DNA from: Hoplostethus atlanticus
Taxonomy: Eukaryota > Chordata > Actinopteri > Trachichthyiformes > Trachichthyidae
Assembly: GCA_034670405.1 (NCBI GenBank)
Contig: JAXDDX010000281.1
Coordinates: 124,001 to 188,000 of the forward strand
Length of the DNA: 64,000 nucleotides
Direction of reading: 5' to 3'
Shown here: positions 34,042 through 62,194 of the stretch, in pieces
Layout of the letters: the number at the start of each line of letters is the position of its first letter
Numbering within the stretch: the first letter of the stretch is position 1
Program-made: the position numbers and the translations under genes
The notes under the pieces: generated by a model
What the model was told of the DNA's origin: nothing
The model's database searches: none
Seen by the model: the letters and a program-made list of their open reading frames with translations, nothing else

Positions 34042-34107
<66 letters not shown>

Positions 34108-36293: not shown

Positions 36294-36329
<36 letters not shown>

Positions 36330-39300
36330 ATAGCCACAGTGGCTATTATGTCCTGTCTTGCTGCTGTAAGCCAAAATATGACAAGGGTTATATTGAGTGT
36401 AGAGCTCAGCCCTTTGCTCCACCCTCCCCCCCATCTCCTCCCCTCACCTGCCCTCTCTTTGTGTTCTGACTCCACCTGACCAGCACACAGCATGAGCACC
36501 CAGTCCAAAACAACAGGTACCAGTTCCCTGAAACCCCCCACCCACCCCCGACCACACCCTGCAAACCAGCAGTAGTACTCGATCTCAACAACATGCAACC
36601 AAAGCTTAAACTTAAGCACTTAAAGGTGCTCCATGTAGCATTTTACTTTACATCAATAAATCATCAGCACATTCATGTTGAGACATTAGTATCATTACCG
36701 TGAACAAACAACACCAGGTTGGCAGCATCTACCGGCCTCTACTCTGCATTTTACATTGGGTGTCACCGGGTCGGATTTGGTGGGAAACCTGTTGTGTTGC
36801 TTTACGGCACAAAACAGGAAGAGGGCGCTGTTCTTCCAGAGCAAACGGTGCTAAAGCATTCAGAATTTATGGTAGCGGCAGTTGGTGGAAGGAGAGAAGG
36901 GAAGATGGAAAAATCACTTCCAACAAGTTGATCCTCTTTAGTAAAGACAAAGAAGAAGCAAAGATCCAGGAAGCAACAGGAGGAACGTCTTCATTTTGAG
37001 AAACATTAGCGCTAACAGTACCGCTACCAGTCACCTCGACCACGGTCTCATTTGACTCATTCATGATATATTGATGTTTAAGAATGCTACACATTGCACT
37101 TTTAATTTTAGAAATTTCAATAAAACCTTCAATAAAGCTATTTAGCCTTTTTAATAACTTGACTCTACGTAGAGGATGAAAAAGCCTAGCGCCCTTATTG
37201 GTCTAATATCCCAACTTCATGTAGAAGCGGGTGCTCACATTTATAACTTCGATCCTCATTGCCTGCGCCTCCTTCCGAATCAAGGTGAGAGGAGCACAAT
37301 ATGCGACGAGGCCATGTCAGCCCCCTGCCATATGCTTATTCTAATGCATTGGAATTCATTTAGCTGTGACGAGCTATTAAACTATCTCACCTCTGTGATT
37401 GGTGCAGTGTCCCAGTTCACCTAGAAGTCATGCTGCAAGATAACAGGGACATTAAAATGGAAATGATCCCGCAATGCGCCCCGATCCCCCATCGTTGTTT
37501 TCACGTCGCTATATTTCGAGCGTTGATTAAATACGTTTGGACACAGTGTCGCAATACGCCTTGTTTTCTTGCGAGGATTTACCTCACGAAGCCACCGTGT
37601 CTAAATAAGGTGTGCTCCGAAATAGTAGCGAGTGAGAGATTGAAATTACAACCCGTTTAGCTCCATTTAACCGCTAGACATTATTCAATTAAATGAAGCT
37701 CAATAAACTCCACATTATCAGCTATACCTGCTTGAGTGTAAGCGTATAGATAACCCTATCCAGTCTACACACACCAGTGGATGCATCTACCAAAGGGTCA
37801 CCTTTAAACCCCTTGTCCCATTGTCGTCCAGTGTTTTAACCACTAACTCGAACTCTGTCCTCTGTCTTCTCTTCTGTCTCCCCTCAACGCTGGCTGGATC
37901 ATAACAACGTAACAGTGGAGAGAGGTGGGAGTCATCTTCAGGCTAATTCCATGTGTGTGTGTGTGTGTGTTCAAGTGTGTTAGAGTGAGCGAGAGTAAGT
38001 GGCATATGTGTGTACCGTAAGCGTGCATGCCTCAACTGTCTCCAAGTGTGGGCGTGTGCTGTACGCTCTTCTTCTCCGTCTGAGCCTGCGACGCCTGGTG
38101 GGGTGACTCAGTTTGTTGGGCTCTGGGGAATGTGATTAGTATTCACTGTAACAACGCTATCGCACTCTCGCTCCTGCCAAAACTTAAGTCTCCTTTTGTC
38201 CTCCTTCCAGCTGCTACCCCTTGGAAAAAAAAAACAGGTATGCTCTGGTACATTCTCCCTTAACACCTTGTGGTTGTGATTCGTCCGAGATGTCTTGTCG
38301 CTCATTGTTCAGCCACTTACTGGGGTTATGGAGAAGCTGAAGTCTTGAAGGCGTTTTGTAGGCTGTGAAGTTAGCGTAGCCGCCATTTGGTGTGTAGTCC
38401 AAATTCCCTGTGGAAGAGGCTTAGCTAGCTATACTAGATTTTGTTCCATGGAATAAAATAAATCAACGTCAGCTTTGTGAATTTTCATCATTCAATTACT
38501 TTTTTATATGCTTGCTAGCGAAATGCTAATTGTTTGGAAAAGGGGACTACAAAATCTGTTAGCTAGCAGAGGGTTTGACGAGATTAGATAATATCTATCT
38601 ATAATATATAATATAATTATATATATATATAATATAATATATAATATCTATAATAACTATTCAATGCAACATTATAAAAATCGTAATAATTTAAACGCTA
38701 AAAGCAAGAGATGCTAATGTAGTCCAATTTCCCTGATGATTAGCATTTCATTAGCAAAAAAAAGTGGAACACAACAGTATATCAAACATAGTATATCAAA
38801 CATAGTATATCAAACATAGTACATCATAGTATATCAAGCATAGTATATCAAACATAGTATATCAAACATAGTATATTATAGTATATCAAACATAGTATAT
38901 CAAACATAGTACATCATAGTATATCAAGCATAGTATATCAAACATAGTATATCAAACATAATATATCAAACATAGTATATCATAGTATATCAAACATAGT
39001 ATATCATAGTATATCAAGCATAGTATATCATAGTATATCAAACATAGTATATCAAGCATAGTATATCAAACATAGTATATCAAACATAGTATATCAAACA
39101 TAGTATATCAAACATAGTATATCATAGTATATCAAACATAGTATATCAAGCATAGTATATCATAGTATATCAAGCATAGTATATCATAGTATATCAAACA
39201 TAGTACTGTATATCTTGGTGATATGCGTTCAACACTAAACACAAAAGCCCATTCCTATTCTCCACAGGGATTTGGGACTACACACCACATGGCGGAGATG

Positions 39301-39624
39301 CTAATCTATAGCATCCAAAATGACGACTTCCGCTCACGGCCTCTATTCTGTTTCTTCCTTTTAGAATTCGAGTCTTCACAGGTTACAGAGAAGAAGAGGA
39401 CAGTCTATCAGATGGCTTTGAGTAAGGGAGCTCACATTATCGTATATTTTGTCCAGTCGTAGCCACGGAGCATCTTCTGCTCCTGAGAGTGGATGTTGAT
39501 CCTGAACTTCTTCCCCTTCTTCCTCACCCACTTTCGTCCACTCTGTCGCTGTCCTACATTTTGTTCCCACTGTCCATTGTCCTGTTTCATTGCCCTCTAC
39601 CCATCTTCCTCTTGTCTCTCTGTT

Positions 39625-39655
<31 letters not shown>

Positions 39656-42600
39656 TTCTCTTTCTCAGATAAACTAGATGAAATTCTTGCCGCAGCTCAG
39701 CAGACAATCAGCACCAATGAGGGGCCGGGGACACGGGGTCAGGGGGCAAAGAGAGACAGGGGCCGAAGTTTCTATGGCAACGAGGTGTGTGTTGTCCCTG
39801 AAATATCTGTCTGTGTGTTTATGTGTGTGTTGCTGCATTCGTTGCATGACAATTTCAACATTCGAGTGTATAAAAGCTGCACTGTGCAAGAAATACACCC
39901 GTCTCACCAGCGGGGTTTCAACAGAGGAGAGCGTGTCATCCCCGTTAACTGAGACGCCGTAGATTCACCCTGTTTCAGGATGCAAGATAACCGCAGCTGA
40001 ACATACTGAGGCCAAAAAAAAAAACAATTAAAAATATATACCATATGAAAATGTACAAAAACTAGGAAATTAATGCAGTATGATGATATATACATTTTTA
40101 TGTGTAAGAAAATTATTTTAAAATATAACCATGTCAAGAAGTTATAACAAATGAAAAAAAATGAGAATAAAAATGATAGTAAAAAAATACTGAACCACTT
40201 TTTCTACACAAATCTCCTAATATGGCTTATTATGATGCAATGAGCGTATTATTACATTGTCTTTCCTGTTGCTGTTTCATTTACGCCCGCCTTCCCCTTT
40301 TTTTCTCTGAGCAGCCGAGTTACGGGGATCAGTCAGGCATGGGGATGATGCCACCGGGGTCGGGCCTCGGCTACGACCGTGGCCAGTACGCCTCGGGCCA
40401 CGCCCCGCAGCACGGTATGCTGCGGCAGAAATCCATCGGTGAGGCTGTCTGTCTGTCCGTCTGCCCCCCTCCGTCCACCTGTCTGTCCGTCCTCTAGACG
40501 AGTTAAGAGGCCCATGCTGTGCGACCTGTCTGTCTGTGGCCGACGGTGTCTGTCCGGGTCCCCCCTCCCCCGGGGGGCGCTGTATTTGTAGCCGACCATA
40601 CGCCGTGCACTCGCCTGTTTAGATGTACTTGTGCTGTCAAGATAAGGTGTCTGTCTTCTACTCACCATACTACTATTTGTGCTGTCGTTAATCTCTTTGT
40701 CTAACTCTTATTATCTTCTGGCTTGTGGCTTACTGAGGCTTTGCTAACTCTCACACTTGAAATAGTGAGTAGTGATCCTGGTTCTCCGGTGACCAAGACA
40801 ACAAAAGCTGTTGTGTGACGTGTTTGTGGAACTGTTGAATGCAGCACTAACAGACTTACATACTAACAGACGTCAGGATTGAGGACAGACTGGCTGGCAG
40901 GTAGATGGGCAGGCAGATTTAGGCAGACACTCTCATTTATCACCCTCAACTTTGCATTTCCTCTGCACCCTCTTCCCCAAACAACTTTCCTACTTTCCGT
41001 CGTTCATCTCTCTCTCCTGCTCTCCCTTCACGCCATCTGTATCCCTCCGTCCACTTCGCCCTTATTTGTCTTTTTCACCCCTCTCTGTTTTCTCCCCGTT
41101 TTGTGAACGGTGTCCTGCAGGCGTGCCCGAGGAGGAGAAGCAGTTCCTGCATCCCCCGGCCATGAAGTTCGCCCGCAGTCTGTCGGTGCCCGGCCCGGAC
41201 GACATCCCTCCTCCCCCGACCACCGCTCCGCCGGACCCGCCGTTCTCCTCGGCCCCGCCGCTGGGTTGGAGAGGCAAGTCGTCCCAGCAGCCCTCCGTGT
41301 CCCAGTCCACCTCCACCTCGGCGCACTACCAGCTCTACTCCCAGTCAGTGCACTTCGCCCAAGGAGGCAGGGAGAGGGCGGGGGGTCCCAGCACCGGCCC
41401 CGGGGGCGGAGCGGTGGACCACGCGCCCCCGTACGCTCACACTGCCGCCCACGCCGCTCAGAGCAGGACGGCTTCCCGGAAGGTCAGCTACCCGGTGGAG
41501 CCCGGGGGTGCCGCCGGAGGGGCCAAGGCGGCGGGTCTCAGGAGAGGCTACAGCACCGCCATCCCTCCCGCCAGCATCGCCACAGTAATCCCTCAGCAAC
41601 AACAGGCTACCCAGAGCCAGCCCCAGCGAGTAGACCGCTCCGGACCCGGGGCTGGAGCAGGGGTGCCCAAAGGAGGCGCCCGGAGAGGTAAGGGCCCCCT
41701 GGTGAAGCAGTCCAAGGTAGAGGATCTGCGTGCGGGCCAGGGGACACTGGGGGGCAAGGGGTCAGTGGAGAAAAGCTCCATCCCCATCCCCACCATCATC
41801 GTCAAGGCTCCCTCCACCAGCAGTAGTGGCCGCAGCAGCCAGGGAAGCAGTGTAGAGGCTGACCCTCCTCCCTCAGGGGAGATAGACGGAGCCAAAGTGC
41901 CCCACGGACCTCCTCCCTCCACTCCGGCTCCACAACCCCCTGCCCCGCCTTCTATCCCAGCCCCTCCACCCCCGTCCCTGCCTTCCATCCGGGCCCAGGA
42001 CAACCTGGATTTTACCAGCCAGTTCGGGGCCGCCATCGTGGGCGCTGCCCGCCGAGACAGAGAGCGCTTTCACGAAGCCCGGAGAAAGAGTGCCTCCTTT
42101 TTCATGTCTGCCGAGGAGGAGGGCCTCATCGGAGGGGTGAGTGGCGGAGCGGGAGGAGGAGTAACAAGGACTCAGGTCTCACAGCAACAGCTTAGCGCCC
42201 AGCCTGATAGCTCCTCCACGCGGCTGCGGCCGTCCAAGTCCATCGATGAGGGCATGTTCTCCGGGGACACCTTCATCCACCACACCCGCAGTATGCCTCC
42301 AGCCTTCGGCCTCCCGGAGTACTCCTCCCCCGCCCCGGACTACCAGCCGAAGTCTGTCCCCACTGACTTCTACGCAGCAGCAGGGAGGCAGCAGGTACCC
42401 TCCTCCTCCACCACCTTCATCCACCCTCTAACAGGGAAAGTGCTGGACCCCGCGTCGCCGCTGGGCCTGGCCCTGGCTGCCAGGGAGCGCGCTCTGAAAG
42501 ATGACGGCAGGTTGAGGCGGGGAACTGATCACCACTTCAGCCGCCAGATGTCCAGCGGCGTGTTCCCTTCGTCGGCCGTCGCCTCGCAGCCGGTGTCGTC

Positions 42601-45600
42601 CGCCGCCCAGTCCTCCAGCTCCTCCTACCTGGTCACCTCCTCCTCCCTGGCCGCCACCACGCCCAGCGTCGGGCGGCCGCCCTCGCCCAGAATCCTCAGG
42701 GGGGCCGGGAGTGTTTGGAGTGAGGACGGCGGCGGAGGGGAGAGGGAGCGGGAGGGCGGAGGGGCCCGGGAGGGGCTAAGAGTTCGCTTCTCTGAGGACA
42801 AAACGGTCCACACGCACCACTACCAGTCACAGCCCTACCAGCCCACCTACAAGGAGAGGGAGAGGGAGCGGGAGAGGGAGCGGGAGCGGTCGAGAGACAG
42901 GGAGCGGGAGTTGTCGAGAGAAAGGGAGAGGGACAAAGAGAGAGAGGGGTACATGAGGAGGGCAGAGCAGGCTGCCGCTAACGCGGCGGCGGCTAGTAGC
43001 GCTGCACAGCAGGCCTTCCAAGCCTCTCAGGCCCAGCAGCCTCGGAGGCCCTCTTTCCTCAGGATGGAAAGTGAAGCCGGTGCCTACATCCTGTCCCTCA
43101 CCCCTCCCTCCCCCCCCGCCCACCGGTACCCAACAGACAGGAAACAGTGCTGGGAGCACTGGGTCCAGCCTGATGGTTCTCCCTCCCCCCGCCCCCCTCA
43201 GTCGACGCCGACGACGAGTTCGTCTTCGCGGACCCCCTCCCCCCTCCCTTGGAGTTTGCTAACAGCTTTGACCGGGGAATGGGGAGGATATCGGGGTACT
43301 CACAACACGGGATGATCGCCAACAACATGGCTTCCCGCCAACAGCAGCCCCCTCCGCCCCCACCTCCCCCTCCTCCCCCTCCTCCGCCCCCGCCCCCCCA
43401 AAAAGAACCTTTCATAGGCGGGTTTCCTGCTCACACCCCCCTGCCCTCGCCACAGGCAGGGGACTCCACCGCCTCCAGCCTCACGTCGTATGACAGCGAG
43501 GTGGCTAACTTGACCCAGTCTGCTCCCTCCCCTTCCCAGACATCCCCCAACCCTCAGCCGCCTCCCTCCCCCTCTACGCTCCTGCCCACTTCCATAGCGG
43601 GACCCCCACCTCCCCCGCCGGTCTCCCCACCGCCTCCGCCCGGCTCTTTCCACAGACCCTTCTCCATGTCGCACTCCCACCACCTGTACAACAGCACCCA
43701 CACCCCGGGGCGTTCCTCCCCAACGCCTCCCCCCCACACTGTCGCTCCCCCTCCGGCCTACCGCGGCCCGCCGACGCCCTCCTCCACCGCCGCCACCTCC
43801 GCACTTCTCAGGGCCACCGCCTCCCTCGCCACGACCGCTAGCTGTGCCACTGCAACCACTACCACTGCTGCCACCACCACGAGCACCTCTGCTCAGCTCT
43901 ACCACGAACGAACACACGCCATACACGCCACACACACCACCTCCTCCGTCGCCGCCACGGGCAACCGCAGGACAGGGGAGCACCACCGTCCTCCCCCCGC
44001 TGCCAAGTCAGGAGAGTCCCAGGAGACGGTGGTGGACTCCGGGATCGAAGAGCTGGACAGTCGCAGCAGCAGCGACCATCACCTGGACAGCATCCTGGCC
44101 GGAGTCAGGGGGGAGAGGCTGGACCGAGGAGGAGGGGGCGGAGGGGGGGGTGGGACAGGGGAGGTGGAGAGGGGAGGCGGAGATTTTCTAGACTCTTACA
44201 TGAGCTACCTGGACGGTCAGACGTTTGAGATGCAGAACGCCACGGCGGCAGCCTCCACTTACCCAAAAGCCAACAGGTTCAGAGAGGGAGGCCGCGTCGG
44301 AGACCTCCGCAGGCAGACCGGCACCGTCCCCCCCTCCTTCCACTCCCACCGACGGAGGGAAGAGCAGGAGGAGGAGGAGGGCGAGGAGGGCGAGGCTGAG
44401 GACGAGAGCGGCCAGGATAGCTACGGGATGAGGGAGGCACAGAATTTGGGACGACCCACCTCGCCGTACTTCGACCGCCCGCGCACCCCGGAGATGAAGC
44501 CTCTGTGGGGCGAGGGGCAGACGGCCGGTGACGGAGGGGGCCAGTCCGGACCCTTCCTGGAGGGGAGGAAGATTTACCCCCCCGCCTCCAGCATGAAACC
44601 CAGCATCATCAACGAGCTGAGCAGCAAGCTGCAACAAAGGGGCCGAGACAGCTGGAGCAGCCAGAGGCCACTGGGCAGACACAGGTACGCTCCTGCTGTT
44701 GACCTGCTTGTTGATATGCTACCACCCATCCCTCTGATTACCAGTGCACTGTGTGGTTGTTGTCTTGTCTGTAAACCTCTCCTCTTTTATCCCCCCCCCC
44801 CCCCTCCACGTGTCTCTCTCAGAAGCAGAAACAGGTAATAGAGCTACTTCCACACTCCCCTCTCCATCTCACTTTCCGTCAGAAACATAAATGTTTGACA
44901 GTAGAAGAAACCTGTGTGTTTCATTACCATCTCCCTTGACGCTTGATGTGTGTGCATGTTCATCATCTATCTATCGGTCTTTTCTCCCGTGTGACCTTTC
45001 GTCTTCCTTTTCGCCAGGTTTTCGGAGGACTCGGCCTCGGCTCTGAGCCCGCCCTCGGTTCGCTCCCAGTCTCCCTCCCCCATCTCGCTCTCCCAGCCGG
45101 CTCTGTCCCCGTCCCCCACCCCTACCTCCCAGTACCCCGGCTGGACCCGGTCTCCGTCCCCTCAGCCTCCGGCCGCCTCTCAGCCTCCGCGTTCGCATTC
45201 CCCTCTGTCCCCGACGTCCTACGCCCCTTACCCCACCTCCCCCAAACACAGACCTGTCTACCGGACCAAAGCCCTGGAGTTCCAGTTCATTCCCAGTCGA
45301 GAGTCCCGCAAGGCAGAGTCCCACATCATGCAGCGGAGGCGAGCGCCCAGCCCCCTCATCTCCCCGTCAGAGAGGCCTAAGGTGGCCCCGCCGCGCCCCT
45401 CCTCCCTCCCTCTCCTCCCAACCTCGCCCCTGTACAGCGCCATGTATGACCTCCAAGGCTCCGTCACCCCTCCGTCACCTGGGAACCCCCTGGGAGATCC
45501 CTACTTCTCGCCCTCCCCTCCCCTGTTTGCCCCCTCGGGTGCCCCTCCTCCCCCGAACTCCAGCTTGTTGGTTTCTCGCTCCCTCTCTCCGACTCATTTT

Positions 45601-45912
45601 CTGTCCGGGACGTCTTCCCCGCCCCTGCACCCTCTCCCCCCACCCCCCTGCCTGAGTTACCCCCATCTCCCGCCCCCCTCCCCTACCAAGCCCTTTGCCT
45701 CCAAGCCGCTGCCCTATTGGACCAAGTATGATGTGGCCGATTGGCTGGGGTACCTGAACCTGGGGGAGCACAGGGAGCGTTTCCTGGACAACGAGATTGA
45801 CGGCACCCACCTGCCCTCCCTCACCAAGGAAGATTACCTGGACTTAGGGGTGACCCGTGTGGGACATCGCATGAACATCGAACGTGCCCTGAGGAGAGTG
45901 ATGGATAGGTAG
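6418..45912 (+). CDS. shank1: SHANK1 postsynaptic scaffold (multi-exon gene, 5' partial)
   Basis: Spliced gene span. SHANK proteins are multidomain scaffolds of the excitatory postsynaptic density; they link SAPAP/PSD-95, Homer and actin regulators. Joined exons give, in order: SPN domain (from [12 protein letters not shown]), ankyrin repeats ([28 protein letters not shown]), a PFLESPKYA linker, SH3 ([20 protein letters not shown]), PDZ ([31 protein letters not shown]), a giant proline-rich exon with PPPLEF Homer motif, and SAM (DVADWLGYL to [11 protein letters not shown]). Paralogue choice: [36 protein letters not shown] and [17 protein letters not shown] follow mammalian SHANK1 as I remember it better than SHANK2 or SHANK3. 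All exon phases agree. The sum is 6,782 nt, closing in frame only after discounting two extra C bases in the giant exon, giving about 2,260 residues (mammalian SHANK1 is about 2,160 complete). The N-terminal exon(s) lie left of the window. Confidence 0.95.
6622..7262 (+). other. shank1: Intron, no gene seen
   Basis: Contains a T run near 6635-6650 and a near-pure (CT)n tract at about 7211-7254 that doubles as the polypyrimidine tract of the next acceptor. Confidence 0.8.
7263..7334 (+). CDS. shank1: shank1 exon: SPN domain, last part
   Basis: 24 codons in phase 0, [20 protein letters not shown] then LHTK. The acceptor is GGTGTAG and the donor GTACAG. It continues the SPN fold into the linker before the ankyrin repeats. 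Confidence 0.95.
7611..7719 (+). CDS. shank1: shank1 exon: SPN-ankyrin linker and start of repeats
   Basis: Encodes [20 protein letters not shown] then [16 protein letters not shown] and ends in phase 1 before donor GTGAGG. Acceptor CTTCCTGCAG. The GLDPNY turn is the first ankyrin-type hairpin. Confidence 0.93.
7720..9370 (+). other. shank1: Intron, no gene seen
   Basis: An (AAC)n/(AAT)n run lies at about 7825-7870. A-rich sequence follows to about 8170. No exon, RNA gene or clear transposon was recognised in the remainder. Confidence 0.6.
9372..10487 (+). mobile_element. Decayed Tc1/mariner element with IR/DR ends
   Basis: Long inverted ends: the left end TTTGTGAACCCTTTTGAATT mirrors the right end at about 10455-10485, and the similarity runs about 100 bases inward. 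Each end also has a second inner copy of the GAAAAAGTATGTGAACC motif (about 9538 and about 10296 inverted), which is the IR/DR layout of fish Tc1 elements. Internally, on the + strand, remnants read like a Tc1 transposase C-terminus: [12 protein letters not shown], then [20 protein letters not shown]. Stops and a deletion (about 1.1 kb total) show it is dead. It sits in a shank1 intron. Confidence 0.8.
10490..11236 (+). other. shank1: Intron, no gene seen
   Basis: Unique-looking A/T-rich intron sequence with no recognised gene, RNA or repeat. Confidence 0.6.
11237..11391 (+). CDS. shank1: shank1 exon: ankyrin repeats
   Basis: Begins with AG completing a GAG codon: [40 protein letters not shown], ending HTALL before donor GTAAAC. 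It matches the mammalian SHANK1 series ETPLTLAAQ...[12 protein letters not shown]. Ends in phase 0. Confidence 0.94.
11392..12253 (+). other. shank1: Intron, no gene seen
   Basis: Starts with a CA run (about 11398-11420). The rest is unremarkable intron. Confidence 0.6.
12254..12421 (+). CDS. shank1: shank1 exon: ankyrin repeats
   Basis: 56 codons in phase 0: [56 protein letters not shown]. Acceptor CCCTGCAG, donor [14 protein letters not shown] is a canonical ankyrin start. Confidence 0.95.
12469..12703. mobile_element. hAT-like MITE
   Basis: Starts CAGTGGTTCTCAAACTGGGG and ends with the inverted ATTTGAGAACCCC. This terminal type (CAGTGGTTCTCAAAC) is typical of hAT/Charlie non-autonomous elements. 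The flanks CCTTAGGG and CCTTCGGT may be a degraded 8-bp target duplication. It lies just 47 bases into a shank1 intron. Confidence 0.75.
13055..13560 (+). repeat. Dispersed repeat family copy (fullest)
   Basis: The longest copy in the window. It runs GGGTTTTTGAAGGCCGATAC, GCTGCCGATAGCTGATATTT, CGTCAGGGTGGAAAAGCCTC, ACTCTCCATTGAAAGCC, GGCAGGTTTCACTGCAGG, ending TTGGCCGATATCTTATTATC. Other copies share subsets of these blocks in the same order. Confidence 0.7.
13561..14271 (+). other. shank1: Intron, no gene seen
   Basis: Contains GT at about 13855-13870, (GAT)n at about 13882-13900 and a long pyrimidine-rich stretch from about 14020 to the acceptor. Confidence 0.6.
14272..14388 (+). CDS. shank1: shank1 exon: ankyrin repeats
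   Basis: 39 codons in phase 0: [19 protein letters not shown] then [20 protein letters not shown]. Acceptor ATCCTCAG, donor GTAGGC. It follows mammalian SHANK1 [20 protein letters not shown] closely. Confidence 0.96.
14389..15077 (+). other. shank1: Intron, no gene seen
   Basis: A/T-rich unique sequence with no recognised elements. Confidence 0.6.
15078..15155 (+). CDS. shank1: shank1 exon: ankyrin repeat
   Basis: 26 codons in phase 0: [20 protein letters not shown] then GQTSFQ. Acceptor CATGCAG, donor GTAATG. The mammalian equivalent is [20 protein letters not shown]. Confidence 0.96.
15345..15960 (+). mobile_element. Probable non-LTR retrotransposon 3' remnant
   Basis: Within the intron, the text [20 protein letters not shown] followed by a short stop, then an A/T-rich tail with repeated TTTAT words, resembles the 3' end of degraded fish LINE copies. 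No reverse transcriptase motif is present, so this is a tentative call. Confidence 0.35.
16193..16259 (+). CDS. shank1: shank1 exon: last ankyrin repeat
   Basis: [20 protein letters not shown] then DV, ending in phase 1 before donor GTAAGT. Acceptor TCTATCAG. The mammalian version is VAVIAGNFELGELIRNHREQ. Confidence 0.96.
16484..16653 (+). CDS. shank1: shank1 exon: linker after ankyrin repeats
   Basis: Completes V and then reads [55 protein letters not shown]. The LRANSD-SM-LPDWM block is specific to SHANK1 in my recollection of the family and helps fix the paralogue. Acceptor GTCTCCCAG, donor GTAGGG. Confidence 0.94.
16654..17091 (+). other. shank1: Intron, no gene seen
   Basis: Unremarkable intron ending in a CT-rich tract (about 17062-17090). 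Confidence 0.7.
17092..17213 (+). CDS. shank1: shank1 exon: basic Ser/Arg linker
   Basis: Reads [20 protein letters not shown] then [20 protein letters not shown] and ends in phase 2. It matches the SGTLRSASSPRGARARSPSR segment of mammalian SHANK1. Donor GTGAGT. Confidence 0.93.
17214..17803 (+). other. shank1: Intron, no gene seen
   Basis: Unique intron sequence ending in a C-rich acceptor. Confidence 0.6.
17804..17952 (+). CDS. shank1: shank1 exon: start of SH3 domain
   Basis: [49 protein letters not shown]. The [11 protein letters not shown] block precedes the SH3 fold (strand FVATRAH). Ends in phase 1; the next exon completes V. Confidence 0.94.
17953..18800 (+). other. shank1: Intron with dispersed-repeat fragments
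   Basis: About 18130-18300 carries the TATGATGGATATGATGCAGT and GGTTGTCTGTGGGAAGCC words of the dispersed family. About 18590-18640 has the GAGGGAAACACAGTTG end. No gene seen. Confidence 0.6.
19355..19965. repeat. 11-bp CTTCACATCAA satellite
   Basis: About 55 tandem copies of CTTCACATCAA and one-base variants. Three units make 33 nt, so one frame stays open and reads as an 11-residue peptide repeat. This is a satellite, not a gene. Confidence 0.95.
20458..20571 (+). CDS. shank1: shank1 exon: SH3 domain core
   Basis: Reads [20 protein letters not shown] then [18 protein letters not shown], including the ALYDY-less SHANK SH3 core with GFWEG and [11 protein letters not shown]. Acceptor TTCCTTAG after a C run, donor GTGAGC. 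Confidence 0.96.
20572..20989 (+). other. shank1: Intron with (CA)n
   Basis: (CA)n at about 20596-20650 and a short (GATCA)n at about 20895-20917. Confidence 0.85.
20990..21065 (+). CDS. shank1: shank1 exon: SH3-PDZ linker
   Basis: [20 protein letters not shown] then SFDAP and AG of the next serine codon. [17 protein letters not shown] is nearly identical to mammalian SHANK1. Donor GTAAGG; phase 2 out. Confidence 0.96.
22040..22460. promoter_or_regulatory. Candidate conserved non-coding element
   Basis: A complex, mostly repeat-free stretch with homeodomain/POU-like words (ACTAATTT, GGGAATTATTTACATA, TCAATTATTAACGCGC), interrupted by a CT microsatellite at about 22262-22283. It lies in the 12-kb intron before the PDZ exon. 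The enhancer role is a guess from composition. Confidence 0.3.
22928..23110 (+). repeat. Dispersed repeat family copy
   Basis: Carries CTGCCGATAGCCAATATTTTG, CCCCCAGGATTTTATTTTGA and GACTATGGGGCACTATAGTC, parallel to 13.1-13.3 kb. Confidence 0.6.
23194..23400. repeat. 46-bp inverted repeat (large hairpin)
   Basis: The arm at 23194-23239 (starts GCTCCATGCTAACAC) and the arm at 23355-23400 are reverse complements with one mismatch, separated by 115 bases. It may be the core of a palindromic MITE. Confidence 0.9.
24004..24690. repeat. 53-bp minisatellite
   Basis: About 12.7 copies of a unit beginning CTACAGTGTAGCCACGGATG. Unit starts are exactly 53 bases apart (24057, 24110, 24163 ... 24640). 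Units alternate between GCTAGCTACAGACG and GCTATCTACAGACG forms and between GGTCACAG and GGCTACAG, suggesting amplification of multi-unit blocks. Confidence 0.95.
24715..25330. promoter_or_regulatory. Candidate conserved non-coding element with embedded dispersed repeat
   Basis: Repeat-free blocks at about 24715-24940 (TAATAAAATAATTTTAAATC, TCAAATGATTGATG, CGGTCATTATC) and about 25105-25330 (CCTTTTATTGACAG, GATTACATTAACAAGG) flank a dispersed-repeat fragment at 24948-25100. The A/T-core motifs and low repeat content suggest a regulatory element. Conservation is untested. Confidence 0.3.
25668..26375. mobile_element. MITE with nested teleost dispersed repeat
   Basis: The left end GCTGCATTATGTAACTTTTG is mirrored by AAGTTAAATATTGCAGG at about 26358-26375. 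Inside, from about 25788, is TTTAGCAGACGCTTTTATCC then AAAGCGACTTACAATAAG, a very common teleost repeat motif. The interior repeat is therefore likely a later insertion. Confidence 0.6.
27130..28680. repeat. Cluster of CA, CT, GA and GT microsatellites
   Basis: (CA)n at 27143-27175; (CT)n at about 27260-27300, 27615-27670 and 28625-28678; (GT)n at 27834-27890 and 28426-28452; GA-rich sequence between. All long open frames here are low-complexity (SLSLS, HTHTH, ERERE). No gene seen before 28.7 kb. Confidence 0.9.
28861..28967 (+). CDS. shank1: Candidate alternative first exon of a short shank1 isoform
   Basis: ATG at 28861 in strong context (GAAATGG) opens [10 protein letters not shown], a serine/leucine stretch, then [15 protein letters not shown], and stops at AG|GTACCC in phase 2. 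Joined to the PDZ exon at 33035 it reads [14 protein letters not shown] in frame. This parallels, from memory, the short SHANK2/ProSAP1A isoform whose unique first exon ends ...NSLY before SDCIIEEKT. An internal promoter upstream in the CT/GA-rich region is inferred. The donor is acceptable but not ideal. Confidence 0.5.
28968..30150 (+). other. shank1: Intron with GT/CA microsatellites
   Basis: (GT)n at about 29175-29220, 29272-29292, 29462-29490 and 29642-29665; CA at about 30011-30045. No gene seen. Confidence 0.8.
30152..30682. mobile_element. MITE with GTTCACACTGCC terminal repeats
   Basis: The left end ATGTTCACACTGCCAGCAAC and the right end GGCCGGCAGTGTGAACAC are inverted repeats about 530 bases apart. 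A second internal palindrome CCGGCCGACAAGCCGGCCGG lies next to the right end. No coding remnant. It is a non-autonomous DNA transposon of undetermined superfamily. Confidence 0.65.
30683..32400 (+). other. shank1: Intron, no gene recognised
   Basis: GT run at about 30735-30770; otherwise mixed unique sequence, including a CpG-rich block at about 31400-31760. No exon or RNA gene was recognised. Confidence 0.5.
32405..32730 (+). repeat. Dispersed repeat family copy
   Basis: Starts GGTTCGACCGATACGGGGTT and carries GAATTGTATTCTTGTCAGGG, GGAAAAGCCTCTGAAACAGC, AATCAAACAGACTGCATCAT and a closing CCGATATATC/TATCGGTCCAGCCC. The GACCGATA...TATCGGTCC pair suggests short terminal inverted repeats. Confidence 0.7.
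33035..33117 (+). CDS. shank1: shank1 exon: start of PDZ domain
   Basis: Completes S and then reads [27 protein letters not shown]. The carboxylate-binding loop GFGF is the SHANK equivalent of GLGF. Acceptor CTGCTAG, donor GTAAGT; phase 1 out. Confidence 0.97.
33240..33364 (+). CDS. shank1: shank1 exon: PDZ domain middle
   Basis: [43 protein letters not shown]. The long insert between the second and third strands ([12 protein letters not shown]) is specific to SHANK PDZ domains, which bind the SAPAP/GKAP C-terminus. Donor GTACCG. Confidence 0.97.
33365..34118 (+). other. shank1: Intron with long (CT)n at 3' splice site
   Basis: (AAT)n at about 33865-33892, and a pure (CT)n of about 60 bases at 34044-34104 that serves as polypyrimidine tract for the next exon. 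No gene seen. Confidence 0.9.
34119..34254 (+). CDS. shank1: shank1 exon: end of PDZ domain
   Basis: [45 protein letters not shown]. The helix histidine of class I PDZ domains is in VGHRQVV. Donor GTAAGA; phase 1 out. Confidence 0.97.
34255..35019 (+). other. shank1: Intron, no gene seen
   Basis: (GAT)n at about 34277-34300. Two TTTTGTTTTG-rich stretches around 34620-34700 echo each other (…GGTATAACCAAAA…). No gene. Confidence 0.6.
35020..35100 (+). CDS. shank1: shank1 exon: post-PDZ linker
   Basis: Completes I and then [26 protein letters not shown], with phase 1 out. It matches [15 protein letters not shown] of mammalian SHANK1. Donor GTAAGC. Confidence 0.95.
35101..36620 (+). other. shank1: Intron, no gene seen
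   Basis: C-rich stretch at 35460-35590 and (CA)n at 36296-36328. An exon-like 37-nt piece at 35449-35485 was considered and rejected. Confidence 0.6.
36625..37110. mobile_element. hAT-like MITE, copy 1
   Basis: The left end AAAGGTGCTCCATGTAGCAT is mirrored by GAATGCTACACATTGCACTT at the right end. Its interior (GAAGAGGGCGCTGTTCTTCC, GAAAAATCACTTCCAAC) recurs inverted at 46118-46570. Confidence 0.75.
37150..37640. promoter_or_regulatory. Candidate conserved non-coding element
   Basis: Repeat-free, with A/T-core motifs such as CATATGCTTATTCTAATGCA, TTGGAATTCATTTAGCTG and GAGCTATTAAACTATC. It lies between the post-PDZ exon and the PWKKK microexon. A regulatory role is inferred from composition only. 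Confidence 0.3.
38211..38237 (+). CDS. shank1: shank1 27-nt microexon (AATPWKKKT)
   Basis: Good acceptor GTCCTCCTTCCAG and donor CAG|GTATGC frame a 27-nt exon, a multiple of three with phase 1 in and out. It adds AATPWKKKT between SELEEM and EFESSQ. Some mammalian SHANK1 sequences, as I recall them, carry VSPWKKKI at exactly this position. It is likely alternatively spliced. Confidence 0.75.
38580..38650. repeat. AT-rich palindromic tract
   Basis: TATAATATAATTATATATAT-type sequence capable of cruciform formation. Confidence 0.8.
38770..39215. repeat. AGTATATCAAACAT satellite
   Basis: Tandem array of a 14-bp unit AGTATATCAAACAT mixed with a shortened 10-bp unit AGTATATCAT and a variant AGTATATCAAGCAT. 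It ends about 150 bases before a coding exon. Confidence 0.95.
39365..39421 (+). CDS. shank1: shank1 exon: [13 protein letters not shown]
   Basis: Completes E (G+AA), then [18 protein letters not shown], and ends with A of N. Acceptor CCTTTTAG, donor GTAAGG. It aligns to mammalian [20 protein letters not shown], shortened before EKKRT. Confidence 0.93.
   Translation, partial: NSSLHRLQRRRGQSIRWL
39669..39784 (+). CDS. shank1: shank1 exon: [14 protein letters not shown]
   Basis: [39 protein letters not shown], ending in phase 0 before donor GTGTGT. Acceptor TTTCTCAG after a CT-rich tract. Confidence 0.94.
39785..40314 (+). other. shank1: Intron, no gene seen
   Basis: About 39868-39990 resembles the MITE end GCTGCACTGTGCAAG. 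The rest is A/T-rich. Confidence 0.5.
40315..40438 (+). CDS. shank1: shank1 exon: PSYGDQ to LRQKSI
   Basis: [41 protein letters not shown] then G of glycine. The mammalian equivalent is [23 protein letters not shown]. Donor GTGAGG. Confidence 0.95.
40439..41120 (+). other. shank1: Intron, no gene seen
   Basis: CTGTCTGTCC-rich start (40441-40560), then a pyrimidine-rich run to the CCTGCAG acceptor. Open frames crossing into the next exon begin in the intron. Confidence 0.7.
41121..44684 (+). CDS. shank1: shank1 giant proline-rich exon (two apparent frameshifts)
   Basis: About 3.56 kb, the counterpart of the giant SHANK exon. Family anchors in order: [133 protein letters not shown] (PPxxF Homer site at 43240-43257), [49 protein letters not shown]. 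Fish-specific features are an RERE repeat (about 42846-42950), an 18-proline run (about 43345-43400) and a Thr/Ala-rich block. The frame changes twice, at C runs near 43110-43117 and 43192-43198. Dropping one C at each restores [15 protein letters not shown]. Phase 2 out at GTACGC. Confidence 0.9.
44823..44834 (+). CDS. shank1: Possible 12-nt shank1 microexon
   Basis: A perfect CCTCCACGTGTCTCTCTCAG acceptor and a CAG|GTAATA donor bracket only 12 nt (AAGCAGAAACAG). It preserves phase 2 and would add four residues (RSRN before RF). Skipping it also keeps the frame, so it may be a neuronal cassette. Confidence 0.45.
45018..45912 (+). CDS. shank1: shank1 last coding exon: Ser/Pro tail and SAM domain
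   Basis: Opens (R)[19 protein letters not shown], passes [20 protein letters not shown] and [20 protein letters not shown], then the SAM domain from [20 protein letters not shown] through [20 protein letters not shown] to [19 protein letters not shown], stop TAG at 45910. SAM domains of SHANKs polymerise into zinc-stabilised sheets. The [16 protein letters not shown] core is invariant in the family as I know it. Acceptor TTTTCGCCAG. Confidence 0.97.
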
Positions 45913-51485: not shown

Positions 51486-51738
51486 CAAAATCCATCAATG
51501 AGACAAATTTTATTTTGATACAACAGGGATTATACAGGAAATAGCACTTTAAATGCACTACATTTAATGTGCAGCTGAAAATACACAGTAGAGATCAAAG
51601 TCACTCCTTACAGCCCTTTTTTCTTCCACGTGGTCAACAGAAGGTGGCATCTGCAGGACGTCCAGAATCTGTAAAGACAGAATCAGCCGATCAGGAACGC
51701 AACAGCATAATAAGCCAAACGAGGTTGAGACCCAGTAG

Positions 51739-51823
51739 TCTCCTCAGACTCTGCCTTGTCAGGGGCAGAGCGCACGTCTCTCAACATTGATTCTCTGAGC
51801 CCAGTGCAATACATCACAAGAGA
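51739..51823 (-). ncRNA. Box C/D-like snoRNA copy A (SNORD88-like)
   Basis: Read on the minus strand: terminal stem UCUCU/GGAGA, box C-like UGAUGU (51816-51811), conserved guide-like UUGCACUGGGCUC, hairpin CUCUGCC-CCUGACAA-GGCAGAG, and box D CUGA (51747-51744). The 3' end is about 70 nt from the next 3' splice site. It is similar along its length to copy B, 260 bases away. The SNORD88 (HBII-180) resemblance rests on my memory of a GCACUGGGCU guide before box D'. Confidence 0.6.
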
Positions 51824-51999
51824 TCAAGCTTTCTTGCTTGCTACCATGGATGTGTCCTTTAAGCGCTGCATAAGTGAGGAGGATATAAGGAACCAACCTG
51901 ATCCACGGTCAGCGCGGGAGCACCTTCACCATCTGAGAAAGACAATCTTGCATTACTGCTTTGCCATGTCAATATTGATATACACCTCTTGCACATTAG

Positions 52000-52083
52000 T
52001 CTCCTCAGACTCTGGCTTGTCAGGGCCAGAGATGCACTTTGTCACCACACAGAGTCAGAGCCCAGTGCAAGTCATCCAGGGAG
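52000..52083 (-). ncRNA. Box C/D-like snoRNA copy B (SNORD88-like)
   Basis: Minus strand: terminal stem CUCC/GGAG, box C-like GGAUGA (52077-52072), guide-like CUUGCACUGGGCU directly before box D' CUGA (52058-52055), box C' GGUGAC (52046-52041), hairpin CUCUGGC-CCUGACAA-GCCAGAG, and box D CUGA (52008-52005). It lies 67 nt upstream of the acceptor at 51933. Relative to copy A, one stem pair is swapped (G-C for C-G), which indicates selection on structure. Confidence 0.65.
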
Positions 52084-53046
52084 CGGTGAATACTGTCAGT
52101 AGCACCATTTTCTACCTGCAGCAGTTAGTGATTAAGCCAGATGTAGTGGAGGTTAACAGTTTACGGACCTTTTCAAACTAGTAAACATTTTGTTATCTAA
52201 AGTCACAGGATAGTATCAAATTTGAAGTTAAATCAAAGTTGAATATGAAAATACAATTCTTAGTTGTAGTTGCTTGCCTCGTAGTCCCTGATGGCAGCTC
52301 ATACTTTAGCCAGCTGTTTTTACTAGTACATCACTGGCGGTAGGTAGTATTGACTTAAAAAAAAAACTCCAGTGTTTCCATTTAACAGTTTAATGAGTTA
52401 GCTAGTAGGCTAGCAGGAAGGCTCGCCACATGTAGCTAGGCCCCTGCGCGTTAAGCATGCAGCTAACTGCCCAGCTAGCTTAGTTGCTAATTCACATGTT
52501 TGGCCTGAATGGAAACAACGTGAACACTGAATTTACTGGTAACATCTGGCTTGTCTAGTGTCACAAAAAGTCCCAACTTGGGTTATGCCAAGCACAGGTA
52601 CTTTTATGGAAAGTGTGAAACCAAACTCCAGTCAAACACCGGTCAGTTTACATGTGCCTTGCTGAGCAGAAGGAAAAAAAAAGAAAATACACCGCAAAAT
52701 AAATTAAACGTTTTCTGAATCATAAGATAACTTGCATGCAAGTTCAGCATACAAGTGATCCACCAACTAGCCCTTATGTCAATAAACCCCAACTTTGAAT
52801 GATAGTTAGGATTGCCGATAAGCAAGGCAACATTAACACGCTGGATTATTGAATGGAGCTTGGCGTGACAACTAAACATAACGTTATCCTCCACAACATC
52901 CATGTTATCAGCACATTTTAAACATAATACCACAGAAACCTCTCAAGAGTCAGTATGCAATTTAACGAACAAGACGTACAAAATATCTTACCAAATCTAC
53001 TTGCGCATCAGGCGTGAACAAGACAGCTACGCTGCTAAAATGGCTT

Positions 53047-53054
53047 CTTTTATA
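53047..53054 (-). promoter_or_regulatory. TATA box of the ncRNA host gene
   Basis: TATAAAAG on the minus strand, about 25-30 bases upstream of a GTAGCTGTCTTG start region. Confidence 0.55.
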
Positions 53055-53059
53055 TCATT

Positions 53060-54033
53060 TTCATTTAGGTCCCCTCTCCAACTATGTGGTGTCCTAAATT
53101 ATGCCTGTTCAAAAAGACTCCCTTGTGTTTCTCAAATTTGTTCATTTAGTCTTCATAAATAAACTGTGGGCACAAAGTTTTCAAAGGTAATATTTATAGA
53201 CAGACATTTATATAACAGGTAGAACTGTATTTAAGTAGACTTTTTTTAATCAACACTCCTTTTTGGTGTACCTTTTGTAGTCTGTACTGTAAATATCAAC
53301 TTCATTCACTAGTAATCACTGTACTAGTTTTACTGTACTTTATGCTCAGTATCATATAATGGTCAGTTGTAGAGTTGCATATAATTGTTGTCTGAGAGCA
53401 ACTAAGCACCTCTGTGCATACTTCGTAAACTGCTCTTTTCTTTGAGTAATATTTAGAAAACTGACATCAGTAAGTTTTAACTGAAGTAAACATGCTTCTA
53501 CTTGAGTAAAACAGAGAGTAGAGAGTGGAACTCTTTCCACCCCCCCCAGAATGTCTTTGGTACTCCACAGTGAATTTATAGTTAATATTAATGGCGACCA
53601 TACTTTAATTTTTTTTTGTGTCTTGGGGTGTAAATATAATATCGCTAGGGACTTATACTGTGTCTGTGGTACTAAATAGTGAGTTTATAGTGATCTTAAC
53701 ATACTGTATGGTATTTTGTTTTATCTCTTATAGTATCAAAATAATATTCCTCTAGCAACTTACAGTTTTGCCATGATATCTGTATACTATCTTTGCAGAA
53801 TTTATTATAGGATTACTATAATGCTTTCTTATGAGGGCAGTTCGGCGCAGCAGCAGGGCTGGGTGTGACCATTGCAAAGCAGCAACTGTCTAGTTATTTA
53901 CATGACATGTCCTGGCAAGGCAGAGCTCGCAAGTATAGCATAGCATTAGGTGTTATGTCACCGGCACCGGCAGATATGTTAGTGTCTACAATTCGTCTTG
54001 AGAGGCCCCTGACTTCAAAGAATATCTGTCATC

Positions 54034-59113: not shown

Positions 59114-62097
59114 TTACAGCTTGCAAATGTGTCAGTCTTTCTGTGTGTGTCTACGCACAGAGGCAGAGCGAGAGAGAGTGAAAAGGAGAGTAGGAGTGTG
59201 TGGTGAGTGGGAGCTCATGGGGACTGCCAGGAAAATTGCAGAGAGATTTCCAAATTCCACATCCACAAACAAAACAGTTGCTTCAGATATGTTATTACAC
59301 TCGGGGCTTTGCCTCTCCTGCCCTCTCGTCCTCCCTCGCCCGTCTGCCTTTTTATGGCCAGGCCTCGGCTTCGCGTCCACCGACCACACCCCGCAACCCT
59401 GTTACTGTTCGACATGCGGAAACTTAATGCCATTAAAGTGGCACTTCTGACACGTGGGGGTTGACCTTAGACGACAACAGCAGTGTTAAAGGTGCAGAGG
59501 AAGAGGCACGCCGGACCTTATTGTGACTGCTTGGTAGCTCAAGTGGAGCTTGTGATGACAGAGTACAGGCCAAGAGCAAACCCCTCTTCTTCATTAGGGT
59601 TAGAACAACACATCGGTTAGGTTAAGGTTAGGATTGGGGTTAAAAATCTAATATTGACCAATCAGTGATGCCTGCGTCCAATATGATGCATATGATGCAC
59701 TTTTCTTTATTACATGTTTATTGTAGAATTGATTAAAACTACACTGGTTGTCTATGGGACGTCCTTCACCTGACCTGATTCTAACCTGAGGAGTAGTAGT
59801 AATAGTAGTAGTAGTAGTAGTTGTGGTAGTAGTAGTCGTAGTAGTAGTAGTAGTCATTTTTGTTGTATTATTTGTATTGATGTGTCAGTGGAGAGTTTTA
59901 GTGTCCTGGTCTAAATGTGGTTCCACTCTCCCAGGAGCACAATTCTGTGGGAAACACTGAATAGATGCAATGTTTTGGCATGAAAATGATCTGCAGCGTC
60001 AATCCAAAAACAAACCAAAAAAAAACCCATACTGGTCCAATCCCGACTCCCCTAGCCTGTACAGTAGACCTTCCTCTGTCTGTGTCCCAGCAGCCTGGGA
60101 ACTACCAGCCCACAGTGAAGCGGACAGAAGATGCCTTCCAGGCCTGCAATGACATCGTGGCGTGTTTCCAAGAGAGGGCGCGGGTGGAGAGGCAGTACGC
60201 CCAGCAGCTCAGCGAGTGGAGCAACAAGTGGAAGCCTCTGGTGGACTCCAGTGAGCAATAACCCCTCCCATTACACCCCCCTGTCAATCGGATAGATGTG
60301 ATGTGATGTAGTGATGTGAGCCTGTGGGTAAATTGGGATGTTGCAGTAGAAAAATAGTACCAGGATACAGCCTAGATTATATCAGTAAGAATATAGCAAC
60401 TGTCAATTTCAAACTATAACATGTTCTATGAGTGTGAGAATATGAACCCTATGCTTCACTTCTTCCCAGGTCCGCTGTACGGATCCCTGCTGAAGGCATG
60501 GCAGTGTTTCCTGTCCTCCGCCGACCGGCTGGCCTCCTTGCACTCCTCCATCTGTCGCTCGCTGGTGTCGGAGGACGGCGACCGGGTCAGGACCTGGCAG
60601 AAGGACACCTTCCACAAGAAGTTATTCGGCGGGTTCAAGGAGTCCCAGGACTTTGAGACAGGCTTCGCACGTGCTCAGAAGCCCTGGGCCAAGCGTCTTA
60701 AAAAGGTTTGAGCGTTTCAACTCTCACCAGACCTTTCAAAAGCTGCTTTTTGACTTACTTGACAGTCTAAGGATTATAATGTTGAAGATATATCTTTATA
60801 AATAAACTAAATAGTAAAACTATACAATTACTATACAACTATTACAATACAACTATTACAATTTTGCTATATTCTTAGCAAAAGGAGGTGATGTAAACAT
60901 TCAACTTTTATTCATCCAAGGGAAAGTCGACTGAGCCCACTTCTCAAGGAAACGAACATTTGTGTTCTCTTTTAATACGACGGTGTGTTGCTACTGTGGT
61001 TTTGGAACAAGTAAGAGGTTCTCTTGTGCTCAGGTCCCAGATAGTCGTTTTAACGTCTGATGCTGACAGTTACGTCTCTGTGCGTCTCCAGCTGGATAAA
61101 GTCAGGCGGGCGTACCATAAGGTGAGCCGCAAGGAGCAGTCGGCCAGGGAGCGCGAGGCCCACGCTCAGGGCAACCCGGACGTCGCCATTGAGAAGCAGA
61201 GGAAGATGCAGGAGGAGAAAGAGCTCGCGCAGCAGGAGGCAGAGAAAGTAAGAACATTGCACGTTGTTGTATCTTGTTGGTCTGGAAAAAAAGAAAAACG
61301 AAAATAAATGATGTGTGTGACCGTGTGTATCAAGGTTATTATAGTGTGACAGGTTTATTTATCTTTTAATTTCAGTTCCACTTTCTAATTCGGTTTACAT
61401 TCGGTTCCTTTTTGTTAGTTTCAGTTACGTTTCAGCTTTTCAGAGCGTTCCATTTGTTTAGTTTTAGTTTTTCCACATGAATCCAGTTTTTGTTTTGGTT
61501 GTAGTCCCTTCATTTAGAGCCAAATTAGGGGGAAACTGGCAGTTTGTGTGGAACGCTTTCTCAATGTTTAGGATATACATAATTGGTGTTTGGTTTTTTC
61601 TACATGACACAGGAACATTTGAATGAGTTGGGAGAGTAAATTAATGCTCTCTCCAAAACGGGGTACTGGAGCAAAACAGAAATGAGCATTTCTATTTTAT
61701 TTTGGTTATATGAAGCTTTAGTTTAGTTTTTGCAATTTATTTCATTTTTATTTTTACTTGTTTACAAAAATGATTTTTCACATTTTGTTATACACGTTTA
61801 AAACAAATGTATATGTACTTGTACAGACATTTGTTGTATATATATATATATGTTTATATGTATGTGTATGTATGTGTATATGTGAAGGTATGTATACATG
61901 CTATATTCACTGCTCCCTCAGGTTCGCGTCCGCTACGAGAAGGTTCTGGAGGAGGTGAGCCGCTACGCTCCTCGCTACATGGAGGAGATGGAGTCCATCT
62001 TTGACCAATCCCAGGAGGAGGAGAGGAAGAGGATCAGCTTCCTCAAACAGGCCTTCCTCTCCATCCACAGACACCTGGACGTCACCAACAATGAGAG
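56740..62097 (+). CDS. pacsin: PACSIN/syndapin F-BAR protein (5' part of gene)
   Basis: Span of five coding exons giving about 262 residues of a PACSIN. PACSINs bend membranes with an F-BAR dimer and recruit dynamin and N-WASP via a C-terminal SH3, acting in endocytosis and caveolae. Seen: start ATG at 56740 (A at -3), NHSFW then GNYQPTVKRTEDAFQACNDI, RARVERQYAQQLSEWSNKW, WQKDTFHKKLFGGFKESQDF (wedge-loop LFGGFKES), ARAQKPWAKRLKK, RYEKVLEEVSRYAPRYMEEM, FLKQAFLSIHRHLDV. The gene ends at a phase-2 donor; the rest of the F-BAR, NPF linker and SH3 are outside. RY-PRYMEEME and the acidic N-terminus are closest, in my memory, to PACSIN3, but overall divergence leaves a fourth paralogue possible. Confidence 0.92.
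56800..60090 (+). other. pacsin: pacsin intron with repeats
   Basis: GT run at 56805-56830. Dispersed-type repeat with ...GGTCAAGA...GAGACCAAG... words at about 57180-57345. A LINE-like tail TGCTATATAAATACA at about 58295. (TAC)n at about 58320-58355, GA at 58690-58732, CA at 59077-59111, (TAG)n at 59792-59855. The dispersed family copy is at 59655-59960. No gene seen. Confidence 0.6.
59655..59960 (-). repeat. Dispersed repeat family copy with (TAG)n insertion
   Basis: CCAATCAGTGATGCC, ATGATGCATATGATGCACTT, CTGGTTGTCTATGGGACGTC and TCTGTGGGAAACACTGAATA match the 2.6-2.8 kb copy in the same order. A trinucleotide array lies inside. Confidence 0.65.
60091..60250 (+). CDS. pacsin: pacsin exon 2: F-BAR helix 1
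   Basis: QPGNYQPTVKRTEDAFQACN, DIVACFQERARVERQYAQQL, SEWSNKWKPLVDS, phase 1 out at GTGAGC. The acceptor is a tandem CAGCAG: using the first keeps the initial glutamine, using the second (exon from 60094) drops it and gives the usual family spacing FW-x-x-GNY. Confidence 0.94.
60470..60705 (+). CDS. pacsin: pacsin exon 3: F-BAR helix 2 and wedge loop
   Basis: Completes S, then PLYGSLLKAWQCFLSSADRL, ASLHSSICRSLVSEDGDRVR, TWQKDTFHKKLFGGFKESQD, FETGFARAQKPWAKRLKK. LFGGFKES corresponds to the membrane-inserting wedge loop. Acceptor CTTCTTCCCAG, donor GTTTGA (weak at +3). Confidence 0.94.
60706..61091 (+). other. pacsin: pacsin intron, no gene seen
   Basis: A/T-rich with a short TACAACTATTACAATA repeat. 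Confidence 0.7.
61092..61247 (+). CDS. pacsin: pacsin exon 4: F-BAR coiled coil
   Basis: 52 codons in phase 0: LDKVRRAYHKVSRKEQSARE, REAHAQGNPDVAIEKQRKMQ, EEKELAQQEAEK. Charged helical segment equivalent to EAAKKAYHLACKEEKLA of PACSIN1. Donor GTAAGA. Confidence 0.93.
61310..61770. repeat. TTTAGTTTTAGTTTT-type fish repeat
   Basis: Starts CAAGGTTATTATAGTGTGAC and is full of CAGTTTTAGTTT and TTCGGTTTACATTCGG words. This composition is common to a widespread fish non-autonomous element that I cannot name with certainty. Confidence 0.5.
61922..62097 (+). CDS. pacsin: pacsin exon 5: F-BAR helix 4
   Basis: VRVRYEKVLEEVSRYAPRYM, EEMESIFDQSQEEERKRISF, LKQAFLSIHRHLDVTNNER/S, phase 2 out at AG|GTGCAG. 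It corresponds to the KYEKVLEDV...HLNLAENS segment of PACSIN1. Confidence 0.94.
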
Positions 62098-62194
62098 GTG
62101 CAGGTCTATGCGCGCGTGTGTGTGTGTCTGTGTGTGTGTGTGTGTCTGTGTGTGTGTGTGAACAATAAAAAAAGAGAGAGAGATTGTTAGTTGT
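62098..62194. repeat. pacsin: (GT)n at splice donor
   Basis: The microsatellite starts about 20 bases downstream of the donor. Confidence 0.9.

Follow-up and report, generated by a model that had tools for sequence, protein, structure and literature searches.

Two SNORD88 box C/D RNAs within a predicted minus-strand host gene next to SHANK1 in the fish Hoplostethus atlanticus

The human SNORD88A, SNORD88B and SNORD88C RNAs (HBII-180A/B/C) are intron-encoded members of a single Rfam family, with several copies lying in one host gene; their precursors derive from the introns of C19orf48 (PMC4647676), of which the stretch from exon 2 to exon 3 has been used as the backbone of an expression vector (PMC4851398). 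Their site is part of a list of human 28S rRNA modifications that comprises 3680 Cm (SNORD88), 3697 Am, 3703 Am, 3723 Gm and 3739 Am, and it is given among those losing methylation in human rRNA depletion experiments (PMC5597630). The depletion of SNORD88A/B/C lowers the proliferation of human fibroblasts (PMC10911272). At the genomic level, C19orf48 and SNORD88C are located in human at the edge of the KLK cluster, close to ACPT (PMC4689925). The same 28S guide function is assigned in chicken to a different RNA, GGgCD10, which guides 28S-C-3190 (listed in Table 1 of PMC2653536 as the HBII-180/snR76 function) and, like U83, also 18S-A-429. Its hosts are given as intron 1 of LOC771432 and intron 8 of chr1_11.94, a gene that also hosts U43, and for that LSU site yeast snR76 is named as the functional counterpart (PMC2653536). 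For fishes, we found no description of a SNORD88 host gene among the titles and abstract openings listed by a literature search whose scope included few subscription papers.

Here, we consider a 64,000-nt stretch of a Hoplostethus atlanticus contig (hereinafter the window), in which an Rfam scan over the whole length returned three matches above the curators' cut-offs, one to a LINE 3′ element and two to SNORD88. The latter match RF00604 over its full length on the minus strand, with 59.8 bits (E 3.8e-11) for copy 1 (52086-51998) and 52.5 bits (E 5.1e-9) for copy 2 (51825-51737), both exceeding the family's gathering cut-off of 46 bits. A preliminary description, drawn up from the sequence letters alone, had recognized two intronic C/D-like RNAs resembling SNORD88 and had named an Rfam search with the SNORD88 model as the means of checking this; the outcome bears out the resemblance clearly. 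It is these E-values that decide the SNORD88 identity, the spacing to the splice sites being by itself modest evidence. By its sequence, the locus adds a well-supported but ordinary member to a snoRNA family that is already known. No third SNORD88 match emerged from the 53 scored of 69,675 first-look candidates in the same genome (633 Mb), and viral contigs yielded 0 matches to SNORD88-like DNA.

Boxes C, D′, C′ and D as well as a terminal stem are present in both copies (Table 1), and the guide-like block that the preliminary description had seen in common to the two RNAs, UUGCACUGGGCU, is indeed identical between them. Two boxes depart from the consensus, these being box C of copy 1 (UGGAUGA versus RUGAUGA) and box D′ of copy 2 (CAGA versus CUGA). 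Hence, apart from C′, which is commonly loose, each copy has one defective box, and the defect lies in a different place in each. Of the seven pairs in the terminal stem of the Rfam model, three fail in copy 1 and one in copy 2, while the inner four pairs form in all three rows of an alignment of the two copies with the Rfam consensus. The folding energy of the whole RNA is not unusual in either copy (z of -0.25 and -0.28). The two RNAs align with each other so strongly that none of 500 shuffles did as well. In contrast, their intron flanks show no likeness, with 44% of 500 shuffles scoring as well downstream and 34% of 500 upstream. This pattern suggests that either the copies are old or their duplication did not include the flanks; nor is there a visible sign that the distance to the splice site, found in both, was copied along with them.

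Table 1. Features of the locus and its immediate neighbours, in window coordinates
Feature	Position	Strand	Basis or remark
SHANK1, PDZ to SAM exons	33215..45912	+	PDZ best to SHANK1; opposite strand to host
Predicted last exon	51490..51668	-	Acceptor ending 51669, 9.71 bits; 3′ end inferred
AATAAA	51514-51509	-	Sequence
SNORD88 copy 2	51737..51825	-	Rfam RF00604 match; boxes read from sequence
Copy 2 box D CUGA	51747-51744	-	Sequence
Copy 2 hairpin, C′ to D	51749..51770; arms 51770-51764 + 51755-51749	-	Predicted fold
Copy 2 box C′ AUGUUGA	51787-51781	-	Sequence
Copy 2 box D′ CAGA	51797-51794	-	Sequence
Copy 2 guide UUGCACUGGGCU	51809-51798	-	Sequence; identical to copy 1 guide
Copy 2 box C GUGAUGU	51817-51811	-	Sequence
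Predicted internal exon, 35 nt	51898..51932	-	Acceptor (ending 51933) 5.35 bits; donor (51897) 5.84 bits
SNORD88 copy 1	51998..52086	-	Rfam RF00604 match; boxes read from sequence
Copy 1 box D CUGA	52008-52005	-	Sequence
Copy 1 hairpin, C′ to D	52010..52031; arms 52031-52025 + 52016-52010	-	Predicted fold
Copy 1 box C′ GUGGUGA	52048-52042	-	Sequence
Copy 1 box D′ CUGA	52058-52055	-	Sequence
Copy 1 guide UUGCACUGGGCU	52070-52059	-	Sequence
Copy 1 box C UGGAUGA	52078-52072	-	Sequence
Predicted exon 1	52992..53026	-	5′ end inferred; start site ~53025 inferred; donor GT at 52991
TATA box TATAAAA of predicted host gene	53048..53054	-	Sequence
PACSIN, two F-BAR exons searched	60067..60693	+	PACSIN3 159.4, PACSIN1 158.8, PACSIN2 157.4 bits

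The D′ guide pairs exactly with GCCCAGUGC of the 28S rRNA of the same genome over 9 bp, and its complement sits in the register of the human SNORD88 target Cm3680, i.e., the two share a 28S target site. The core of the guide, GCACUGGGC, is also that of the Rfam consensus, whose duplex would amount to 10 bp since it has an A where the fish RNA has a U. The 28S sequence was located with a 37-nt pattern of conserved 28S sequence, which gave one exact match and one with a single mismatch inside the guide target, as against none for the reversed control. As to which residue is addressed, the human sites Am3697, Am3703, Gm3723 and Am3739 lie 17, 23, 43 and 59 nt from Cm3680, and counting these offsets from either the second or the third C of the CCC in the fish 28S leads to A, A, G and A in turn, which counting from the first C does not. 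While the offsets alone fit the second and third C equally, the rule by which the target nucleotide lies opposite the fifth guide residue upstream of D′ (PMC4851398) singles out the third. The third C of UGCCCAGUGC would accordingly by this rule be the 2′-O-methylated position equivalent to human Cm3680. For the D-side guide against the 3-kb 28S-bearing locus (L035), the best run is 12 of 17 with G-U pairs for copy 1, at position 1807, which we place outside the 28S portion and within the inserted element, and 8 for copy 2.

The exact 28S copy is broken downstream by an insertion, at a point that we take to be the R2 retrotransposon site, so that this unit may be inactive. A 44-nt 28S piece starting at this presumed site occurs at five places (L031-L034; C737:13522, 18726 and 23930; C955:576; C1157:7647), with the three on C737 at an exact spacing of 5,204 nt and the same non-rRNA sequence preceding it in the four places read. 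These are head-to-tail units with the look of R2-type insertions.

In both copies, the interval between C′ and D is predicted to form a stem of 7 bp or more, and from copy 1 to copy 2 one of its pairs is swapped from G-C to C-G by a change on both sides. In the three-row alignment, two of the seven pairs show two-sided changes, and three of the seven are unpaired in the consensus row. The corresponding stretch of the Rfam consensus forms a hairpin too when folded alone. When both stems were taken together in a shuffle test, only 12 of 500 shuffles reached the observed cells paired, two-sided changes and covariation score; in contrast, 392 of 500 reached the observed value for further pair types. 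Each of six slid versions of the stem alignment scored lower on all measures. With three rows, one of them a consensus, this alignment is thin evidence. The structure line of the Rfam family, as printed, has the terminal stem only. From the predicted fold, the hairpin may close off the D-side guide, in which case each RNA would probably carry one guide. We regard it as the most useful new detail of the locus, and the base-pair swap makes it a testable structural element.

Turning to the predicted host, a TATA box, a strong first donor, a short internal exon and a last exon with AATAAA had been proposed on the minus strand, and each was recovered as a sequence signal at the position tabulated. 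The first donor (TTG/GTAAGA at 52991; 7.07 bits) is the highest-scoring one in 51200-53400 under a simple matrix. Intron-encoded snoRNAs typically end some 65-85 nt ahead of the 3′ splice site. In this locus, the end of box D lies 72 and 75 nt from the last base of the respective predicted acceptor which, after subtraction of 4-5 nt for the mature 3′ end, agrees with the 67-70 nt originally noted. The further contention that such a spacing is hard to obtain twice by chance holds in part: an acceptor of at least 5.3 bits lies 60-80 nt downstream of 9.7% of minus-strand positions in the window, so that both would coincide at about 1%, making the spacing helpful without being decisive. Of the splice junctions envisaged earlier, the sites for 51897-51669 are predicted, but the proposed start of intron 1 at 52115 (5.05 bits) is weaker than 52991. 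The intron around copy 1 may measure 1,059 nt (52991-51933) or, following a putative exon that ends at 52116, 183 nt. Two features weaken the exon model: among the 15 top-scoring acceptors listed for the region, that at 51933 ranks only joint tenth, and the strongest, 52662 (12.38 bits), goes unused. Overall, the sequence signals suggest that the two SNORD88 genes very probably lie inside an intron-hosting gene.

The contig of 338 kb was read by exon finding followed by searches, apart from positions 60001-64000 and the last 44 bases. The placement of the host between SHANK1 and a PACSIN gene is upheld. The PDZ domain of the former reaches 141.4 bits with a SHANK1 chain as opposed to 107.4 with the highest-scoring SHANK3 chain, by which SHANK3 was rejected as the neighbour, and no SHANK2 chain is among the 60 rows listed by the PDZ search. 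The SAM domain of this gene matches SHANK2 best (113.8 bits), then SHANK3 (107.5), with no SHANK1 SAM chain among the matches. The F-BAR exons identify a PACSIN with the paralogues near-tied. Also on the contig are SYT3 (363.6 bits versus 242.7 for SYT1, with SYT6, 9 and 10 not among the matches), LRRC4B (622 bits versus 533 for LRRC4C), a MED25/PTOV domain by Pfam, and what appears to be a myosin-binding protein C-like gene, for which the search covered its tri-helix bundle domain. Pfam further assigned other segments of the contig to claudin-family, HlyIII-related, MACPF with C2, DUF1899 and phosphoesterase domains, while three of the ten segments submitted gave no match, including the host's own open frame.

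The human block at 19q13.33 comprises SHANK1, SYT3, LRRC4B and MYBPC2 and is not known to include a PACSIN, with C19orf48 presumably lying near ACP4 and KLK1 on the other side of SHANK1, a few genes away. Proximity to SHANK1 would thus be common to the SNORD88 hosts of fish and human, and the neighbourhood is probably shared. The mammalian synteny suggested by the preliminary description probably holds at the level of SHANK1, SYT3 and LRRC4B on one contig, but does not seem to extend to exact adjacency or local order: the fish host lies between SHANK1 and PACSIN/SYT3, whereas the human one is presumably found beyond SHANK1 without a PACSIN. The copy number also differs, with two in the fish and three in the human host. 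The fish host might descend from the same gene as C19orf48. As a more ambitious proposal, to which we give somewhat less than even odds, the C′-D hairpin might be a functional element of SNORD88, conserved from fish to mammals but left out by Rfam, that makes it a one-guide snoRNA, and together with the neighbourhood it might mark one continuous host lineage beside SHANK1 since the fish-tetrapod split.

The chicken guide resides in a different snoRNA with other hosts, which, in contrast to the fish host, are not said to be near SHANK1 in the source consulted; the link is accordingly not universal. The hosting of U43 by one of these chicken genes suggests to us that it is presumably RPL3. A pattern of box C, SNORD88 guide and D′-like box finds six matches in the fish genome, two being the copies at the locus. 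Two SNORD83 matches in this genome (C193) coincide with none of the six, and this exact guide pattern, the one pattern used, thus gives no sign that SNORD83 carries the 28S guide in the fish, as it does in chicken. On this limited test, the fish arrangement resembles that of human rather than that of chicken. With yeast snR76, the likeness consists in the LSU site, by listing alone. The four further pattern matches (C2:1115871, C9:4333036, C18:302525 and C23:668265) may be due to chance, our own estimate of the chance expectation for this exact pattern being about 7, with a reversed control of 0; other guides of this kind may exist elsewhere in the genome.

In our assessment, the probability is about 0.92 that this is a fish SNORD88 locus, with a spliced minus-strand host and two intronic SNORD88 RNAs guiding 28S methylation. 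A short RNA polymerase II gene on the minus strand would be transcribed and then spliced, with each of its two introns releasing one SNORD88 box C/D RNA. Within the snoRNP, the D′ guide would pair with UGCC[C]AGUGC of the 28S rRNA and direct 2′-O-methylation to its third C, which corresponds to Cm3680 in human, with the C′-D hairpin probably closing the D-side guide such that there is one guide per RNA. Transcription, splicing, processing, methylation and the non-coding nature of the host are all predictions from the DNA.

The defects in the boxes raise the question of whether both RNAs are genuine SNORD88s of which just one is functional, the other being a duplicate in decay, either copy 1 with its weak C (UGGAUGA) or copy 2 with its weak D′ (CAGA). 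We consider this unlikely, though deserving of attention, as the guide, D, C′ and hairpin are kept in both, including the G-C to C-G swap, and the unlike flanks make it seem that both RNAs have outlasted their surroundings. Far less credible is the notion that the copies are relics in untranscribed intergenic DNA, with the splice signals there by chance: the moderate splice-site scores and the 9.7% background of suitably spaced acceptors are what could be expected of it, but it would have to accommodate intact guides in both copies, a stem pair altered on both sides, a fitting spacing found twice, and a donor, AATAAA and TATA box in order on one strand, and we deem it very improbable.

The host might alternatively be bifunctional and encode a short peptide as well, from an open frame that continues through the predicted junction of exons 2 and 3 and terminates in ...LTVDQILDVLQMPPSVDHVEEKRAVRSDFDLYCVFSAAH. 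This frame might resemble the start of the human C19orf48 protein, although a ten-letter stretch of that start had no match in a literature text search. In a ribosome-profiling study that allowed uORFs to begin at AUG or CUG, human C19orf48 was among the mRNAs favoured for translation during stress (PMC4383229). Against this, the exon 1-2-3 model has no AUG ahead of the frame, the first in-frame AUG leaves 28 aa, and the open frame has no Pfam match, with its own gene as its only match in the genome; a coding role is, hence, improbable. A fish locus of this kind, in surroundings similar to the human ones, would furnish a simple animal model and assist in dating the link with the host gene; it would also suggest that, possibly, chicken has the derived arrangement. 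Of some interest are how old the linkage is, the exception seen in chicken, and the hairpin.

Elsewhere in the window, the LINE 3′ element is of the UnaL2 type (25787-25841, minus strand; 65.5 bits by Rfam), and two tandem arrays are found, one with an 11-nt unit repeated 54.4 times (19365-19961) and the other with a 53-nt unit repeated 12.6 times (24007-24673).
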